DNA of 64,000 nucleotides. It comes from Verrucomicrobiales bacterium. Lineage in GTDB: Bacteria; Verrucomicrobiota; Verrucomicrobiia; Limisphaerales; UBA1100. The first letter of the stretch is position 1, and each line of letters begins with the position of its first letter. The notes under the pieces were generated by a model. That model was given only the letters and a program-made list of their open reading frames with translations, had not been told where the DNA came from and did no database searches. A program made the translations under genes and the position numbers. The stretch lies in contig SYLI01000066.1 in the NCBI GenBank assembly GCA_005809105.1, positions 1-64,000 on the forward strand, given 5' to 3'. Of this stretch, positions 14,133-63,645 are shown in pieces.

Positions 14133-15395
14133 ATGAAAATTGTGTTGGCATATTCCGGGGGACTGGACACCTCGGTCCTGTTGTCATGGATTCGGGAGAC
14201 GTACCAAGCCCAGATGATCGCCTTCTGCGCCGACATCGGCCAGGAGGAGGAGCTGCGCGGGCTTGAGAAGAAGGCGAAGGGCACCGGCGCCGCCCAGGTG
14301 TACATCGACGACCTGCAGGAGGAATTTGCGCGCGACTTCATCTTTCCCATGCTGCGCGCAGGCGCGGTGTACGAGGGACAGTACTTTCTGGGCACTAGCA
14401 TCGCGCGGCCGCTGATTGCCCAGCGCATGATCGACATCGCCCGCCGTGAGGGCGCCGATGCGATCGCCCATGGCGCCACGGGCAAGGGCAACGACCAGGT
14501 GCGATTTGAGCTCACGGCCGCGGCGCTCGCGCCCGAACTGGCCATCATCGCACCTTGGCGTGACGAACGCTTTCGAAACCAGTTTCCCGGTCGTCAGGAG
14601 ATGATTGACTACTGTGCCGCCAAACGAATCCCGGTGCAGGCCAGCGCGAAAAAGCCCTTCTCGATGGATCGCAACCTTCTCCACATCTCCTACGAGGCGG
14701 GGATTCTGGAGGATCCCTGGTTTGACGCCGGCGATCCGCGGCATCGCGGCTACTTCACCACGCTCTCAGTCCTTCCCGAACAGGCGCCGGACAAGCCGGA
14801 AATGGTGACGCTGGAATATGAGCGCGGTGATTGCATCGCCGTCAATGGCAGGAAGCTGGCGCCACTGGGCGTGATGCGCGCGCTCAACAAGCTGGGTGGC
14901 AAGCATGGAGTGGGCCGCGTGGACATGGTGGAAAACCGGTTCGTCGGCATGAAAAGCCGGGGAGTGTACGAGACGCCCGGAGGGGCCATCCTGCAATTTG
15001 CGCACCGCCAGATGGAGAGCCTGACGATGGACCGCGAGGTGATGCACCTGCGCGACTCACTCATCCCGCGCTACTCGGAATTGGTCTACTACGGTTTCTG
15101 GTTCTCGCCGGAGCGACTGGCACTGCAGGCTTTGGTGGAGGAGTCGCAGCGCCATGTTTCAGGAACGGTGCGCGTGAAGCTCTACAAGGGCGGCCTCCAT
15201 GCCGCGGGGCGCAAGAGCGGTGTGAGCCTTTACAACCCGCACATCGCCACGATGGAGGCCGATCCCACCAAGGCGTACAATCAGGATGACGCCACGGGGT
15301 TCATCCGCCTCAACGGGCTGCGATTGAGGGTGAACTCCGCCGTCCACGGCGCCAACCACCTGCGCCCGCGCCGCGAGCGTCCCCGCGCCCGCTAG
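14133..15395 (+). CDS. argG: Argininosuccinate synthase
   Basis: ArgG condenses citrulline and aspartate using ATP in arginine synthesis. Starting at ATG 14133 the protein is 420 residues, the family norm. The ATP-binding motif [16 protein letters not shown] opens the protein. [40 protein letters not shown] and [19 protein letters not shown] are canonical. No other arg gene is nearby apart from argS. The stop TAG overlaps the convergent exbD stop in a shared CTAG. Confidence 0.97.
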
Positions 15396-15814
15396 GGGCC
15401 GATCGGCAACACCTTGCTTTCGATGTGGGCGACCTTGGCGGCCTTCGCCGCGTCCCACACACGGATAATCTCGCCGTAGGGCGCGTCGCGGTCGGCCTGA
15501 ATCTGCAGCGCAATCTGGGGCGTTGCCTGTACGCGCCGCGTGAGTTCCTGCTCCAGCTGCTGGGGATTCACCGGCTTGCTGTCGATGTGGATGTGGGGCT
15601 TCTCCCTGCCCACCACGACAATCACCGGTGCCGGCCCGGCCGCTCCTTTTTTGCTGCCCTGCTTGGACTCGGGCAGCACGAGCTTGATGGTGAGCTGGTG
15701 CTCGCGAAAGGTCGTGCTGACGACCAGAAAGATGAGCACCACCATCAGCACGTCAATCAACGAGACGATGATGATGGCGGGCGTGGAGCGTCGCTTGTGA
15801 CTCTGGAAGCGCAT
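15392..15814 (-). CDS. exbD: ExbD/TolR-type biopolymer transport protein
   Basis: A single-pass inner-membrane protein of 140 residues. The N-terminus ([29 protein letters not shown]) includes the transmembrane helix with the conserved aspartate in SLIDVLMV, which carries protons with ExbB. The periplasmic part contains [11 protein letters not shown] and [18 protein letters not shown]. It lies 9 bp after exbB and ends the tonB-exbB-exbD-like operon. Its stop overlaps that of argG. Confidence 0.9.
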
Positions 15815-15823
15815 GGGGCCCTT

Positions 15824-16591
15824 TTAGCGTGAGCGGTATTGCTGCCGCAGAAACTCGTCGAGCAGGTTCTCCATTTCCACGGAGAGGGTCTCGATGCGCT
15901 TGTTAAAATAGCTCCATCCCGCCAGCGAGGGGATGGCCACCACCAGACCCAGCAGCGTGGCATTGAGGGCGATGCTGATGCCTTGCGCAAACAGCCCGGT
16001 GTTGTGGCCTTCGCCCGCGCCGCCCATGCCCTTGAAGAGGACAATCAGGCCGAAAATGGTGCCCACGAGTCCCAACAGGGGCGCGATGCCCGTGAAGATT
16101 TCCAACGCCACCATCCGGCGCTCCAGCACCGTGATCTCCTGCCGTGCCCGCGTCTGGAGGGCCTCGGCGTTTTCCTGTCGCGAAAGGTGTAAATGGTCGA
16201 TCGCATAACCCAGCAGCCGCCCGTAGGTGGAATTGCTTTGGTTGCAGAGGGCGCGCAGCGCAGGAATCTGGTCGGGTTCCTTGGTGTGGCGCTGGCCGAT
16301 GACGACATCGGGTGGAATCACGCGCTTGGCTTGCAGCACGATGGCCCGCTCGATGATGAAGGAAAGGCTGACGATCGAGATGATTCCCAGCAGCCCCACC
16401 ACGACGACTTCCATCGGCGTCATCTTGGCCTCCTCCTGCGGCTTGGGGGCGGCGGCTTCAGCCGTGTTGTTCCCAGCCGGGGCAGCGCCTGCGGCGGGCC
16501 CGGCGCTCGCTTTCATGGGCAGGGCCGTCGCAGCGAGCAGCATCGTGGTGGCCAGAAGCCGGGGCAGGTGTCGTCGGAGGGCGTGGAACAT
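15824..16591 (-). CDS. exbB: MotA/TolQ/ExbB proton-channel protein with cleavable N-terminal extension
   Basis: The 255-residue protein starts at ATG 16591 with a signal-like segment (LLATTMLLAATALPMKASA) and an Ala/Pro-rich periplasmic stretch. The first ExbB helix is VVVGLLGIISIVSLSFII. The conserved channel part is GIAPLLGLVGTIFGLIVLFKGM plus IALNATLLGLVVAIPSLAGWSYFNKRI. This N-terminal extension is seen in a subset of ExbB proteins. Start 16591 lies 5 bp after the TonB-like stop; the longer track start would overlap it by 40 bp. Confidence 0.9.
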   Translation of the reverse strand: MFHALRRHLPRLLATTMLLAATALPMKASAGPAAGAAPAGNNTAEAAAPKPQEEAKMTPMEVVVVGLLGIISIVSLSFIIERAIVLQAKRVIPPDVVIGQRHTKEPDQIPALRALCNQSNSTYGRLLGYAIDHLHLSRQENAEALQTRARQEITVLERRMVALEIFTGIAPLLGLVGTIFGLIVLFKGMGGAGEGHNTGLFAQGISIALNATLLGLVVAIPSLAGWSYFNKRIETLSVEMENLLDEFLRQQYRSR

Positions 16592-16596
16592 GGTTT

Positions 16597-17694
16597 TTAG
16601 TGGGGTACGATGATGAGGTGGAAGGAGATTCGGCACTTGCGCCGGTCGGCGCCAATTTCGCGGCGCACACTTTCTGGCCAGCGCCCATAGGGCTGCGGCA
16701 CCTGGATGGACTCCACACAGAGGTGTCGGGGCAGCGCGGACGGATCGGCTGTGGCGACAGGTGTAAAATCGGTGGTCACGGCGCGCAAGTTTCGGATGGC
16801 GCCGTCGGCCGTCTGGTCAAAGTCCACCACGACGACGAAGGGTTCATGGATGCGATGCTCACCCAGCAGTCGAATCCACTGCAGGTAGATGGCGGTGAGC
16901 ATCCGGTCGTCGTATGCACCGCGGGTGAAGCCCTCGGTTTCCAGCCGGAGCGGTCCCTGCCGGGCGTTGCCACCGGCCGCAGGCGCGGGCGTCGATCCCA
17001 CCGAAACGGGTAGCCGGGATTTGGCCTGGGAGAGGATCGGGTTGATGGGGGGGCCTGAGGGCTCGGGCGCGCTTTCAGGCAAGGGCGGCAATTGGGCTGC
17101 GGGCAGCGACGCCATGCGCGGCTCGTTCAAGCGGCCGAGGGGTTCCGACGGGGTGGAAAGCCGGGGTGATTCTGAAAGGGTGGGCTGAAGTGCAGGCCGG
17201 GCCGGCTCAACCGAAGCAACCAGTGCGGGAAAGCGTGGCGCCGTCGCAATGGTGCGAGGCTGCGATTGGGGCGCTGCGTGGGGCAGGGGAGGGCGTGGTG
17301 CAACCACAGGAGGCGCGGCGGCAATCTTGGGAAGCGTGGCCATCACCGGCAGGAACGCTGAAGGAGATTTGCTCCTTGGTGAAGAGGTTTTGGAAACCGG
17401 GTCCGGGCTGCTTGCCGCGCTATTTTGGGCGGCATAATGCGCTGCGTCCTTGGGGCGCGGAGCAGGGGGGCTGTCGGGGGAAACCTTGATGAAAGTTTGC
17501 GCCGGTGGCAGCAACGTGATGGTCAGTTCCGGCAATTCAGTTTTTTGCAGCAACGTGGAAACAGGGGGCTCGTGGAACCAAGCGAGGCCAACGCCCGCCA
17601 GACACACGTGGAGGGCCAGCGATCCGGCGGTGGCCAGTTTGGACCGATAGCGTCCCCAATCAACCGGGGTTCGGTGTGGGAAATGGCGCCCCAT
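16597..17694 (-). CDS. TonB-like energy transducer with long Pro-rich linker
   Basis: The protein has about 365 residues from ATG 17694. A single transmembrane segment near residues 20-40 (LATAGSLALHVCLAGVGLAWF) is followed by a Pro/Ala/Ser-rich region of roughly 200 residues that would span the periplasm. The C-terminal domain of about 110 residues (YDDRMLTAIYLQWIRLLGEHRI ... FVVVVDFDQTADGAIRNLRAV) resembles a TonB-C-like fold but is divergent. Its position directly before exbB and exbD supports a role in energising outer-membrane receptors or an alternative PMF-driven system. No TonB-dependent receptor lies in the window. Confidence 0.7.
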   Translation of the reverse strand: MGRHFPHRTPVDWGRYRSKLATAGSLALHVCLAGVGLAWFHEPPVSTLLQKTELPELTITLLPPAQTFIKVSPDSPPAPRPKDAAHYAAQNSAASSPDPVSKTSSPRSKSPSAFLPVMATLPKIAAAPPVVAPRPPLPHAAPQSQPRTIATAPRFPALVASVEPARPALQPTLSESPRLSTPSEPLGRLNEPRMASLPAAQLPPLPESAPEPSGPPINPILSQAKSRLPVSVGSTPAPAAGGNARQGPLRLETEGFTRGAYDDRMLTAIYLQWIRLLGEHRIHEPFVVVVDFDQTADGAIRNLRAVTTDFTPVATADPSALPRHLCVESIQVPQPYGRWPESVRREIGADRRKCRISFHLIIVPH

Positions 17695-17770
17695 CTGCGA
17701 GGAGGAGCGTGCCGCAAAGGAATGGGCGGCGCAACGATTAGTTGGGGAGCAGTTGTTCAGAGACAAAGGA

Positions 17771-59100: not shown

Positions 59101-59363
59101 TCGTGGGCGTGGCTCCGCTGGTGTTTTTTGAAAAGAGTGTTCAGGCCAAATTCCTCGTTCCCATGGCCGTCTCGCTGGGCTTTGGCATCATGTTTGCCAC
59201 GGTGGTCACCCTGTTGCTGGTGCCTTCCATCTACCTGATCCAAGAAGACCTTCGCCGCGCCGTCAAGTGGCTCTATGGCGGCGGAGAGGCGGCACCGGTG
59301 GAACCGCCCGCGGCCGTGTTACAGGCTCCGCCCGGCAACCCCTCGCAGGCGCCGGCGCAGTAA
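56118..59363 (+). CDS. RND efflux permease (AcrB/HAE-type)
   Basis: The 1081-residue inner-membrane pump has 12 expected transmembrane segments. N-terminal ARNPVAANLLTAFFIVAGLVALPHI (in part: NPVAANLLTAFF) is typical. Two adjacent aspartates in TM4 (GILVDDAIVFGENIY, near residue 397) carry protons. Other family segments are PYPGAAPEETE and GVTVNDSLVMVDFVNRNRQ. Drug or metabolite substrate is unknown; a hydrophobic-drug (HAE) type is more likely than heavy-metal because CusA-type methionine motifs are not seen. Confidence 0.94.
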   Translation: MTRIVAWFARNPVAANLLTAFFIVAGLVALPHIKREVFPEFDSNWVLVQVPYPGAAPEETEGSICARVEEVVLSIEGVKQVVSTAAESAGIVAIELFPNTDTQRALNEIKTRVDSIDTFPAETEKPVVTEIIVRKQVINVAISGDVTERELKRAGERVRDELLALPGITQVELAHMRPYEVAIELSEDRMREYGLTFDEVAAAVRQGSLDLPGGTLRTRAGEVLLRSKTQAQTGAEFERLPLRTHADGSRLTLGQVATVVDGFAETDLRSRFDGRPAVLVRVFRVGDQSALEISREVKDYVAGAASRLPPGIKLGTWQDDSNYLRSRIGFLLRDGWQGLLLVFLSLALFLRFRVACWVTFGIPVAFLAMLWLMPMMDVSISLITLFAFIVVLGILVDDAIVFGENIYTHQQRHGPGLESTISGAMEVAVPVVFGVLTTVAAFVPLLFLEGNTGKVLRYIPLIVVPMLLISLVECVCCLPAHLRNMPDTRSVQGRRGPGGLWARFQSWFADGAERWIVRGYEPLLNACLRWRYLTLATGVGVFLITLAAFAGGHFRFVFFPNVEGDNVAAWVTFPRGTSVETTQAAVARLERAADTVRRDVVAQGLDTTNVFEHSLATVGFQPFRTDAERAGGNYGSDHSGGHKGEVHIETAPSEARRISSFELAARWREAAGEIPGALEQGFSSSIFSAGKPINIRLSGPDLPTLQRAATDLKRRLSAYPEAQNIADTFQPGKREIQIRLSPDAEILGLREADLARQVRQAFYGEEAQRLQRNRDDVRVMVRYPQEQRRSTYDLEDMHVRLPDGRSVPLTEVASLTSGRGYATIRRVDGRRSVSVTADVDTSKLEPDALLARLEQKDLPELMAAHSGLQYSLEGARQEQELTLGSMKRGYIMAIVMIYALLAIPLQSYLQPLIVMSAIPLGLIGAVLGHLILGMDLTVLSLFGMVALTGVTVNDSLVMVDFVNRNRQRYPTLIEAVRVSGVARFRAIMLNSLTTFVGVAPLVFFEKSVQAKFLVPMAVSLGFGIMFATVVTLLLVPSIYLIQEDLRRAVKWLYGGGEAAPVEPPAAVLQAPPGNPSQAPAQ

Positions 59364-59364
59364 C

Positions 59365-59395
59365 CGCGGCAGGGGCGCGGGCGATATTTTCTCCC
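59365..59395 (+). promoter_or_regulatory. Promoter-like element before the MFS gene (recurrent motif copy 3)
   Basis: GCGGCAG followed by TATTTTCTCCC, immediately after the RND stop at 59363. It matches elements before apaG and parA and may allow the MFS gene to be expressed separately from the efflux operon. No clear TTG -35 lies 16-17 bp upstream in this copy. Confidence 0.35.
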
Positions 59396-59449
59396 TACCC
59401 CCCGGCGCCCATTTGCGCTACGGTCGCGCGCCGTTGCCACGTCGCCCGC

Positions 59450-60856
59450 ATGAAAAAGCCATCGCTCCTGGTCATCTTTCTTACGGTGGTCATCGACCTC
59501 ATCGGCTTTGGCATCGTGCTGCCGGTGCTGCCACAGGTGGGACTGGATCTCCACGCTGCGGGATGGCAGACCGGTCTCATCGTGGCCTCGTTCTCGCTCA
59601 TGCAGTTTCTCTTCGCGCCGGCATGGGGTCGCTTGAGCGACCGAATCGGTCGGCGTCCGGTGCTCTTGGTGAGCACGGCCGGGGCCGTCATTTCATACGC
59701 GCTCTTCGCGCTGGCCATCACGCGGCAGAGTCTGGGGCTGCTGCTCATCTCTCGTCTTTTTGCCGGCATTTGCGGTGCCAATCTCTCGGTCGCCAGCGCG
59801 TACATCGCTGACATCTCCAAGCCGGAGGAGCGATCCCGGCGCATGGGACTGGTCGGGATGGCCTTTGGCATCGGCTTCATTCTGGGGCCCTTGCTGGGTG
59901 CGCTAAGCGCGCACTGGTGGGGGGCCGCGGCGCCAGGCTGGGTGGCCTCCGGCATCTGCGGCGCCAACCTCATCCTGGCGTATTTCATCTTGGGAGAGAG
60001 CCACCGGCCCGAGTCGGCACAGGCCGAGCCGCGCCCGCGTGTGGATCAGTGGCTGCACGTATTGCGCCGGCCGCAACTGCGCGTGCTGGTGGGCCTGTTC
60101 TTCTTCGCGACGTTTTGTTTCACCTGTTTTGAGTCGGGCTTTGTCGTTCTCTTCGTCAACAACCCAAAAATGCAACGCGTTGAGAGGGTTGCAGTGCCTC
60201 ATGGAGCCACCGTGATATGGCAGGCCAACAATGGCACCGAGGTGAAGCAAGGCGACGTGTTGGGGCATGCAGTGGCAGGGACGCAGCCCTCGCCGATTCG
60301 CGCGCCGCGATCGGGCCGGGTGGAGGCTACGGCTGACGGGGGGCGCGCCATCAACCACACCATGACAACGGCCTACTATCTCATGGCGTTTTGCGGTCTG
60401 GTGGGTGCGGTGGTGCAGGGAGGGATGATCGGCCGGTTGGTCAAGCTCTTCGGTGAAAAGCGGCTCATCGGTCTGGGCCTGCTGCTCCTGGGGACAAGCC
60501 TGTTTCTGCTGCCGCAGCTCACGCATATCGGCTGGCTCATGGCGGGCTTGGCACTCTTCGCCTTGGCGTCGGGAGTCTACCGCGCGCCCACTTTCGGTTT
60601 GATTTCGCTCAATGCCTCCCCGCGCGAGCAGGGCGAAGTGCTGGGCGTCACCCAGAGCGTGGGAAGTCTGGCGCGCATCGTGGGTCCGGTGTTCGTGCTG
60701 GGCCTCTTCGACATCCGGCCCGAACTGCCCTATTTCATCTGTGCGTGCATCGCGGCGCTGGCGGGCTGGGTGGCTCTGGTCAAGTTGAACCAGCCGCGGA
60801 TTCCGGCGGCCCAGGCCGCTGGTGCCGTTCCCGCAGCGGGCAAGGCGGCCGGTTAA
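59450..60856 (+). CDS. MFS transporter (TCR/Tet-like) with barrel-sandwich insert in TM7-TM8 loop
   Basis: The 468-residue protein starts at ATG 59450. Twelve transmembrane helices with MFS signatures (WGRLSDRIGRRPVLL; SRLFAGICGANLSVASAY) match the tetracycline-type group. Between TM7 (LFFFATFCFTCFESGFVVLF) and TM8 (TTAYYLMAFCGLVGAVVQ) are about 65 extra residues, about 238-303. They contain VAVPHGATVIWQANNGTEVKQGDVLGHA (in part: NNGTEVKQGDVLGHA) and IRAPRSGRVEA, which look like the two halves of a biotinyl/lipoyl-type barrel-sandwich. No modifiable Lys is evident. This loop is periplasmic. The gene lies 86 bp behind the RND gene. Confidence 0.82.
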   Translation: MKKPSLLVIFLTVVIDLIGFGIVLPVLPQVGLDLHAAGWQTGLIVASFSLMQFLFAPAWGRLSDRIGRRPVLLVSTAGAVISYALFALAITRQSLGLLLISRLFAGICGANLSVASAYIADISKPEERSRRMGLVGMAFGIGFILGPLLGALSAHWWGAAAPGWVASGICGANLILAYFILGESHRPESAQAEPRPRVDQWLHVLRRPQLRVLVGLFFFATFCFTCFESGFVVLFVNNPKMQRVERVAVPHGATVIWQANNGTEVKQGDVLGHAVAGTQPSPIRAPRSGRVEATADGGRAINHTMTTAYYLMAFCGLVGAVVQGGMIGRLVKLFGEKRLIGLGLLLLGTSLFLLPQLTHIGWLMAGLALFALASGVYRAPTFGLISLNASPREQGEVLGVTQSVGSLARIVGPVFVLGLFDIRPELPYFICACIAALAGWVALVKLNQPRIPAAQAAGAVPAAGKAAG

Positions 60857-60866
60857 GCGCTTTGAC

Positions 60867-61934
60867 ATGGCGCGCATCCGAAACGTCGTATTTGATTGGT
60901 CGGGCACTCTGGTGGACGATCTGCCGGCCGTGTGGCGCGCCACCAACTTCACGCTCACCCAGGCGGGAAGAGACGAGATGTCGCTTGATGAATTCCGCGC
61001 CGGGTTCAGCCTGCCCTTTGATGCCTTTTACGAACGCGTCACCCCCGGCGTGCCTCTCTCCCAACTCGAGGCATGGTACCAGCAGCGCTTCGCCGGCGAG
61101 CAGGCCTCCATCGAGCCTTTGCCGCATGCGCGCGCCTTCTTTGATTGGTGTGCCGCGCGCGGATTGCGGCGCCTGCTCTTGAGCTCCATCCATCCCGATC
61201 ATTATCGCGAACAGTCCGGGCGCATCCCCTTCGCCTTTGATCGCGAGTACGTGCGCGTGATGGATAAGCGCCTTCGGCTGGGCTCCATCCTGTCGGAGAA
61301 TGGAATGGTGCCGGCCGAGACGATGTACATTGGCGACATGCAGCACGATGTTGATGCCGCCCGCGTTGCCGGCGCGGTGTCCTGTGCCGTGCTGACGGGT
61401 TACAACACGCTCTCGCAGCTGCGCGAGAGCAAGCCGGACCTGGTGGTGGAGCATTTGGGTGAGCTTCGCGCACTGCTCGAGCGCCAGGCCTTGGAATGGC
61501 CGGCGCCCAATGGCGTCGCGCGCAGTCCGGTGGTCACGGTGGGTGCCCTCATCTTTGATGACTTAGGCCGGGCATTGCTGGTGCGCACGCGAAAGTGGTC
61601 GGAGCTCTGGGGCATTCCTGGAGGGAAAATCCAATGGGGCGAAAGTGCCGAGGCTGCGCTGCGCCGGGAGTTGCTGGAGGAGACCGGGCTGGATGTGAAT
61701 GACATCCGCTTTGTGATGGCGCAGGACTGTGTGGCCTCGCCCGAGTTTTATAGGGAGGAGCATTTTGTGCTCCTTAATTACACCTGCCATTGCCAAGGCA
61801 CGCCCGAGGTGCGCCTCAACGACGAGGCCCAGCAGTATCGATGGCTGCGCCCGCAAGAGGCTCTCTCTCTGCCTCTCAACACTCCCACGCGTGTGCTGGT
61901 CGATGCTTTGCTGGACGGGAAGGGGGCCCGGTGA
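60867..61934 (+). CDS. HAD hydrolase-NUDIX hydrolase fusion
   Basis: The 355-residue protein from ATG 60867 has an N-terminal HAD domain: nucleophile motif NVVFDWSGTLVDDLP (Asp about 10), motif II LLSSIHPDHY, and motif IV MYIGDMQHDVDAARVAG. The second Asp of DxD is Ser, so phosphatase activity cannot be taken for granted. The C-terminal NUDIX domain begins near residue 220 with VVTVGALIFDDLGRALLVR and carries a perfect NUDIX box GGKIQWGESAEAALRRELLEETGL (in part: RRELLEETGL) at about 250-273. The stop overlaps the folB start as GTGA. A role in removing phosphates from dihydroneopterin triphosphate is an attractive inference, not shown. Confidence 0.9.
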   Translation: MARIRNVVFDWSGTLVDDLPAVWRATNFTLTQAGRDEMSLDEFRAGFSLPFDAFYERVTPGVPLSQLEAWYQQRFAGEQASIEPLPHARAFFDWCAARGLRRLLLSSIHPDHYREQSGRIPFAFDREYVRVMDKRLRLGSILSENGMVPAETMYIGDMQHDVDAARVAGAVSCAVLTGYNTLSQLRESKPDLVVEHLGELRALLERQALEWPAPNGVARSPVVTVGALIFDDLGRALLVRTRKWSELWGIPGGKIQWGESAEAALRRELLEETGLDVNDIRFVMAQDCVASPEFYREEHFVLLNYTCHCQGTPEVRLNDEAQQYRWLRPQEALSLPLNTPTRVLVDALLDGKGAR

Positions 61935-62281
61935 AGGGAACCATTGCCATCGTTGATCTCGAAGTGGCGTGCCGCATTGGCGTGCCCGATAGCGAGCGAA
62001 GCACGCCCCAGCGTCTGATGATGACTTTGGAACTGGAATTGGACTTGAGTCGCGCTGCGACCACCGACGACATCGCGCACACTGTGGACTACGACGCTCT
62101 GGCGAAGGATCTGCGGGTTTACTGCGCCGCGGGCGAATGGCGCCTTCTTGAGAAACTGGCGGCAGACATCGTGGCCCGCGTCGTGTCGGCGCACCGGCCT
62201 CTGCGCGCGTCCTTGGAAATTAAAAAATTTGTCCTTCCGCAGACGCGGCACGTGTCCGTGCGCGTGGAATACACCGGCTAG
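61931..62281 (+). CDS. folB: Dihydroneopterin aldolase
   Basis: FolB splits dihydroneopterin to 6-hydroxymethyl-dihydropterin and glycolaldehyde in folate synthesis. From GTG 61931 the protein is 116 residues. VDLEVACRIGVPDSERSTPQRLMMTLELELD (in part: CRIGVPDSERSTPQ), DIAHTVDYDALAKDL, WRLLEKLAADIVARVV and VRVEYTG match the family. The start overlaps the HAD-NUDIX stop (GTGA), so the two are translated together. The stop shares CTAG with the convergent subtilase. Confidence 0.92.
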   Translation: MKGTIAIVDLEVACRIGVPDSERSTPQRLMMTLELELDLSRAATTDDIAHTVDYDALAKDLRVYCAAGEWRLLEKLAADIVARVVSAHRPLRASLEIKKFVLPQTRHVSVRVEYTG

Positions 62282-63645
62282 GGCTGAGGCAGTTTGACGC
62301 CCAGCACGGTGCGCATCCGCGCCCCGGCCTGTTGCGCCGTGTAAGCCTGCTTGGCCACGAGCGCCGCGGCAACGCCCGAGTTGTAGGCCGTGGCGGCCGA
62401 CGTGCCGGTGATGAGGTAGGTGCGGTTGTTAAACTGCACCCGCGCCGTGCCCGGCCCGCCGATGTCCACGAAATCGCCACGGTTGGCGTAGCTGGCTGGG
62501 TTGCCGGCGTAGTCGGTGGCCGTGACGGCCAGCACTTCATTGTAGGCGGCTGGATAATTGGGGGTGATCACCGGAGAGTTGCCGGCTGCGCCGAGAAAAA
62601 GCACGCCGCGTTCGTGTCCCTGCTGGATGATGGAATGCACCACGCGGCTTTCGCCGGGGCTGCCCAGACTCAAGTTGACGATGGAGGCGCCCCCGTTGAT
62701 GGCCTCGGCAATGCCCCTGGCCACATCAAACGAGGTGGTGGTGGCGCGGTCGCCGTAGATGTCCACGGGGAGAATGCGCACGGGCAAATCGGAGCCGGCA
62801 AGTTTCATATCGGACAATCCGCGCATGATGGCGTCGGCCATCGAGGTGCCGTGGCCGGGCGTCGTGGCGGCGGCGCGTTCCCCCTCATACAGGTTGACTT
62901 GCGGCATCAGAAAATCGGTGCGCGCCATGCCGTTGGCCTGCACAGCCGAATCGACAAGCCCGATAATAATCGAGCGACCATCGGCGGCTTTGCCCTGTTC
63001 GAGCGCAAGGCCGGGCAGGGGGGCCGCGCTGACTTGCTCCGGGCCAGCAGGGCGTTCCACAATGTACACGGCATCCACATCGCCCCAGTTGCCGTTGGCC
63101 TCGATGAGCTGGCGGGCTCGCGTGGCGGCCTCTTCATCTTCAAAGCGCAGGCGCACGGCATTGATCTTTGCGATCTCGCCGGCGATCTTGGCGTTGAACT
63201 GGCTGGCAAGCGCGCGCGCCTCCTTGTCGGGCTTGAGCACCACCACCAGCTCGTTTGGAATGGTGCGGGCCTTGGCGGGCAATGCCTGAACCTTGCGCGT
63301 GGCCTGATCGCGATTGTTCCGGTAGATGAAGAGCTTGGCCGAATCGCTCTTGTCGGGAACCAGCGCGTAGCTGGCACTGCCCAGAAGCAGGTCCAGCGCC
63401 TCTCCGGAAGATCGATCCCTAAACTGGGCACTGACCTGGCGGTCAAATTGCGGATCCAGAAAGATTTCCCAGCCCGTCTGTTGGTGCAGAAGCCTGAGCA
63501 CCTCAAGAACTGGCACATTTTCAAGCTTGGCCTCGAAGCGCTGGGTGCCCGGTTTCCGGATGAGAAGGGCTGCGGGGACAGGGGCGGGCGCGGCCTGCAC
63601 TGCGAGCACGCCAGCCAGAAATCCCGCCCACAAACTTCGTCTCAT
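62278..63645 (-). CDS. Secreted subtilisin-family (S8) protease with STN-like N-terminal domain
   Basis: The 455-residue protein from ATG 63645 has a signal peptide (LWAGFLAGVLAVQAAPAP). Residues about 38-110 (LENVPVLEVLRLLHQQTGWEIF ... GEALDLLLG) resemble the short STN domain of secretins and TonB receptors. A segment at 127-200 (IPNELVVVLKPDKEARALASQF in part) resembles an I9-type propeptide. The catalytic domain shows Asp232 (IIIGLVDSAV), His265 (PGHGTSMA), oxyanion Asn356 (GAAGNSPV) and Ser416 (ITGTSAATA). All triad residues are present. It probably matures outside the cytoplasm. The stop overlaps folB in CTAG. Confidence 0.88.
   Translation of the reverse strand: MRRSLWAGFLAGVLAVQAAPAPVPAALLIRKPGTQRFEAKLENVPVLEVLRLLHQQTGWEIFLDPQFDRQVSAQFRDRSSGEALDLLLGSASYALVPDKSDSAKLFIYRNNRDQATRKVQALPAKARTIPNELVVVLKPDKEARALASQFNAKIAGEIAKINAVRLRFEDEEAATRARQLIEANGNWGDVDAVYIVERPAGPEQVSAAPLPGLALEQGKAADGRSIIIGLVDSAVQANGMARTDFLMPQVNLYEGERAAATTPGHGTSMADAIMRGLSDMKLAGSDLPVRILPVDIYGDRATTTSFDVARGIAEAINGGASIVNLSLGSPGESRVVHSIIQQGHERGVLFLGAAGNSPVITPNYPAAYNEVLAVTATDYAGNPASYANRGDFVDIGGPGTARVQFNNRTYLITGTSAATAYNSGVAAALVAKQAYTAQQAGARMRTVLGVKLPQP

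Follow-up and report, generated by a model that had tools for sequence, protein, structure and literature searches.

A conserved STN-like domain at the N-terminus of a subtilase family

Background

STN domains have been described in secretins, in TonB-dependent transducers and in regulators of the FecR type. Near the end of the window (the whole 64,000-nucleotide stretch of DNA analyzed here), the original prediction placed an STN-like module in a subtilase, between a signal peptide and an I9-like segment, and proposed that an envelope complex, such as a TonB-like system located at 15-17 kb, might control the protease or be the place to which it is targeted. This raised the question of whether the N-terminal domain truly belongs with the interaction domains of envelope machineries, how widely it accompanies the protease, and what role it could play there.

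Results

The predicted STN-pro-S8 protease gene (62278..63645, reverse strand) encoded a protein of 455 aa, with orthologues in related genomes. Its open reading frame extended from an ATG at 63643-63645 to a stop codon at 62278-62280 on the same strand, a start supported by the leader peptide as well as by an FAA-hydrolase gene that starts about 120 bp upstream and is transcribed divergently. The signal peptide, MRRSLWAGFLAGVLAVQAA, was read directly off the sequence and covered approximately residues 1-20 (63586..63645, reverse strand) without lipobox cysteine; comparable hydrophobic leaders in the orthologues agreed with its original assignment. The STN-like (secretin N0-like) domain followed at about residues 36-110 (63316..63540, reverse strand), as delimited by orthologue profiles, and displayed the family motif TGW-x-V/I-x-x-E/D-P. 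The segment previously described as I9-like corresponded to a Fervidolysin_NPro-like prodomain at residues 117-185 (63091..63297, reverse strand; Pfam PF22148, 31.1 bits for a cut-off of 21), which was matched in 44 of 46 orthologues (E up to 1).

The Peptidase_S8 catalytic domain, predicted to be intact, was recovered at residues 223-435 (62341..62979, reverse strand; Pfam PF00082, 86.8 bits), with thermitase as its best solved relative. Catalytic Asp232 (62950..62952), His265 (62851..62853) and Ser416 (62398..62400), as well as the oxyanion-hole Asn356 (62578..62580), all on the reverse strand, were invariant in 51/51 proteins of a cross-phylum alignment. By its domain, Asp-His-Ser triad and oxyanion Asn, the protein is thus classified from sequence as an S8 subtilase. 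When contigs were searched with the single protein, only Clostridial S8 relatives were retrieved, aligned over the protease part.

With the window protein alone, no STN (PF07660) match above the curated Pfam cut-off was obtained. Because a single sequence was weak evidence for STN, orthologues were gathered from 58 related genomes and 48 of their N-terminal domains were aligned to build a profile. PF07660 was weakly matched by 30 of these 48 domains (best E 5.6e-4) and other families by at most three each, so that the HMM search proposed as a check was negative for the window protein itself and weakly positive among its orthologues. Against 177,635 PDB sequences, the 48-domain profile yielded 16 matches up to E=10, of which 15 were N0 domains of PilQ or GspD (PilQ 4ar0, E 6.2e-4); the top match was the lipoprotein 9u5s_R (E 8.7e-5). 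Comparison with hhalign gave a probability of 97% with secretin N0 regions (E 3.7e-11) and also 97% with membrane-anchored STN-like proteins, both sets having been chosen as profile matches and hence not being independent, and of 2% with the family's own prodomain, used as a control. A single-sequence AlphaFold2 model of residues 28-125 was poor (pLDDT 66.7), and Foldseek on this low-confidence model returned the FecA signalling domain as best match (E 0.17) and GspD N0 at rank 3 (E 1.3); structural likeness to either is only a hint from the model. On the profile evidence, the N-terminal domain is a family-level homologue of secretin N0/STN, which upheld the predicted STN-like module.

An ordinary propeptide without the STN fold had been named as the finding that would tell against this module. 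The missing Pfam call for the window protein alone would suit an ordinary or duplicated I9-type propeptide that resembles STN by chance. The 2% probability obtained with the family's own prodomain argued against a propeptide of either kind and led to its rejection; the profile evidence of the 48 orthologues also favoured STN, and the protein already contains a separate prodomain. We regard an ordinary or duplicated propeptide as extremely improbable.

The STN profile matched 159 of the 167 genomes of the order at E <=3.4e-19, and 161 of the 167 at E <=0.001, spanning all 77 genera (77/77). Among genomes drawn from the class outside the order, only ten gave an STN-profile match, at best a weak one (4e-7), and the matches that were read were secretins or membrane-anchored STN-like proteins. 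In subtilases from the other orders of the same class, the match started only at the prodomain or at the catalytic domain. In the draw across the phylum, the best STN-profile match outside the class was an S8 protease, and a full-length profile recovered full STN-pro-S8 proteins from other parts of the phylum as well, in at least 15 families. Such proteins from other classes (n=37) overturned the view that the architecture was confined to the order. The proposed survey of STN plus Peptidase_S8 returned strong STN matches in nearly all genomes of the order together with these 37 proteins, and STN-pro-S8 is, as judged from sequence, the usual architecture of a family found throughout the order and no one-off oddity. 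A tree of prodomain and protease, from which STN was left out, separated the STN-S8 proteins of the order, those of other classes and STN-less subtilases into three groups, which is consistent with a fusion that arose once. Without a known root, this tree did not discriminate between a fusion lost from the other orders and one passed from class to class.

STN-like domains were also observed in other proteins. The order's STN subfamily occurred in short protease-less proteins (L156:1831-2514 and L158:1755-2414), one of them with EF-hand-like motifs. Loci L161, L165, L166, L168 and L170-L174 encoded proteins anchored in the membrane, which had one STN-like domain or two and ended in a C-terminal tail rich in Gly/Arg or in Gln.

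Genomes from two genera of the window's family (g4 and g5) encoded a protein of 346-402 aa in which the same STN precedes a protease of another type (L056:5121-6218, L057:6432-7556, L058:4393-5601, L059:4813-5856 and L060:4713-5753). The STN subfamily was located right after the signal peptide and ahead of the protease as in the subtilase; the catalytic domain was that of a metalloprotease unrelated to S8. It was considered metzincin-like because of its HExxHxxxxxH motif, a following NLMIDG and weak M10 matches (best E 1.9e-4, just under the cut-off). A fervidolysin-type prodomain was not called in these proteins. Two relatives of the metalloprotease, in G006 and G094, had no STN.

Five g4 genomes (G004, G006, G010, G008 and G012; loci L194-L198) kept the HAD-FolB-FAA hydrolase gene order with no subtilase between FolB and FAA hydrolase, the position of the STN-S8 gene in G016 (L199), in G013 and in the window's closer relatives. 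All five harbored the STN-metalloprotease. Replacement of the subtilase by the metalloprotease version in g4 is only suggested by this distribution, since both proteases were present in g5 and in G016. In a quick domain tree, the STNs of the metalloproteases were nested inside those of the family's subtilases; capture of STN from the subtilase is favoured by this topology and not proven, the AU test having failed to reject the alternative (p 0.51). Retention of the domain with two unrelated proteases suggests that it serves the location or control of a protease rather than its fold.

Within the family, the protease was surrounded by housekeeping genes (HAD, FolB, FAA hydrolase, ProRS, TGT and SecDF), and the neighbor genes were mostly not conserved beyond it. 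No linked partner gene was found among these neighbors. Two other genes near the protease showed features of their own. A predicted MFS-type transporter (59267-60856) contained an apparent internal biotinyl/lipoyl-like (barrel-sandwich) segment near VKQGDVLGHAVAGTQPSPIRAPRSGRVEA, read by eye, and the gene at 60867-61931 encoded a HAD hydrolase-NUDIX fusion; in several members of the family, this locus encodes only the HAD part.

The TonB-like genes lay about 45 kb from the protease gene. ExbB was called by Pfam at 15824-16636, and an ExbD-like ORF, ExbB and a proline-rich TonB-like ORF stood in a row at 15392-17766, the ExbD-like and proline-rich ORFs having been read by eye; no TonB-dependent receptor was noticed beside them. 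In signalling systems, the partner of STN is a FecR-type anti-sigma factor and not TonB. A role of the protease in a TonB-like or FecR-type signalling system at 15-17 kb could draw on the ExbB and ExbD-like genes, and on the presence of STN in TonB transducers and in one FecR-type regulator (PMC7186176). It is very unlikely given the distance and the housekeeping neighbors of the protease, the lack of a TonB receptor, FecR, anti-sigma or sigma gene beside it, and the lack of any PF07660 match in the whole genome at E up to 1. As linkage was not found, the TonB connection was rejected.

Discussion

The window protein combines features of systems that are otherwise described separately. It shares prodomain, catalytic domain and triad with subtilases that have a fervidolysin-type prodomain (PF00082 and PF22148; fervidolysin, thermitase-like), which are autoprocessed secreted zymogens, as this protein may be by analogy, and it differs from them by the additional STN-like domain ahead of the prodomain. 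Secretin N0/STN domains (PF07660, PF21305; GspD, PilQ) are sequence relatives of its N-terminal domain. In contrast to secretins, the protein lacks a secretin pore domain and has a single STN copy, below the Pfam cut-off; the W of its TGW motif is L, M, Y or I in the aligned secretins. In TonB-dependent transducers and FecR-type anti-sigma factors (FecA, FpvA, PupB, PupR), STN is a periplasmic interaction domain, and in the transducers it is located N-terminally after the signal peptide as in the window protein, which however displays no receptor barrel, plug or anti-sigma domain and was seen with no linked sigma or FecR gene. According to a SMART survey, as described in PMC7186176, STN stands N-terminal to other domains, with PupR as the exception.

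We give about an even chance to a mechanism in which the protein is an exported STN-prodomain-S8 zymogen, docked by STN to an envelope partner and released as a protease by autoprocessing. The protein would cross the inner membrane via Sec and fold in the periplasm, where the prodomain would block the active site and STN would dock the zymogen. According to PMC11637429, STN domains bind one another, the STNs of other secretins and the periplasmic parts of proteins in the inner membrane. The most plausible partner would therefore be either a further STN-like domain or a domain of a secretin ring, or else an inner-membrane protein bound through its periplasmic domain. The originally predicted control by, or targeting to, an envelope complex is thus a reasonable inference from STN elsewhere, except for the TonB-like system specifically. 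Autoprocessing at the pro/S8 junction would free the mature enzyme and, because STN and prodomain are both N-terminal to the protease, would leave the STN-pro fragment at the docking site. As this cleavage parts them, STN would set where and when the protease is activated rather than hold the mature enzyme.

Conservation of the architecture as a unit, throughout the order and in other classes, argues for docking. Against it stand the absence of a linked partner, a gene order that is not conserved outside the family, and structural models (single-sequence AlphaFold2) that reached no useful confidence. Compared with the nearest orthologue, dN was 0.22 for STN and 0.10 for S8, and this roughly twofold faster evolution of STN weakens the docking mechanism, as it is unlike the prediction for a tight conserved interface. 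The same rate difference, together with the absence of a linked partner gene and the position of STN directly before the prodomain, with which it would leave, fits the view that the STN-like domain is an extra piece of the prosegment that helps folding or zymogen silencing without any outside partner. We consider this alternative less likely than docking: the relatives of STN are interaction domains, and the presence of the same STN on a metzincin-like protease, where no prodomain of the fervidolysin type was called, speaks against a bond between the domain and the S8 fold.

STN could also be an export address, recognised by the secretin of a type II secretion system through which the folded protease would exit the outer membrane. 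Type II secretion systems export folded proteases, STN is similar to N0, the domain that makes up the entrance of the secretin, and secretins were found in 58/58 related genomes. To our knowledge, type II cargo carries no STN tag, and secretins are so universal among these relatives that their co-occurrence is uninformative, either for this export route, which we consider unlikely, or for the identity of a docking partner, for which a secretin is possible. Returning to docking, the domain might be a portable tag that brings proteases to one envelope complex, with the subtilase order-wide, a transfer to the metzincin in one family and, in one genus, a takeover by the metalloprotease version upon loss of the subtilase version, an extension that we regard as doubtful.

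No paper on an STN-protease architecture was found in the open literature (most subscription journals being outside the scope of the search), and the STN-S8 pairing may already be listed in domain databases. It is a real, conserved and little-described architecture, in which a protease of a known type is unusually combined with an interaction domain that is itself known. STN is a conserved part of this protease family, across the order and in other classes, and is shared with an unrelated protease; its probable role is to help position proteases within the cell envelope or to help regulate them there. Should STN be a docking module, one would expect a conserved envelope complex that has a protease of its own and that could be found using STN as bait, and maturation, by removing the docking domain, would act as a simple activation switch.
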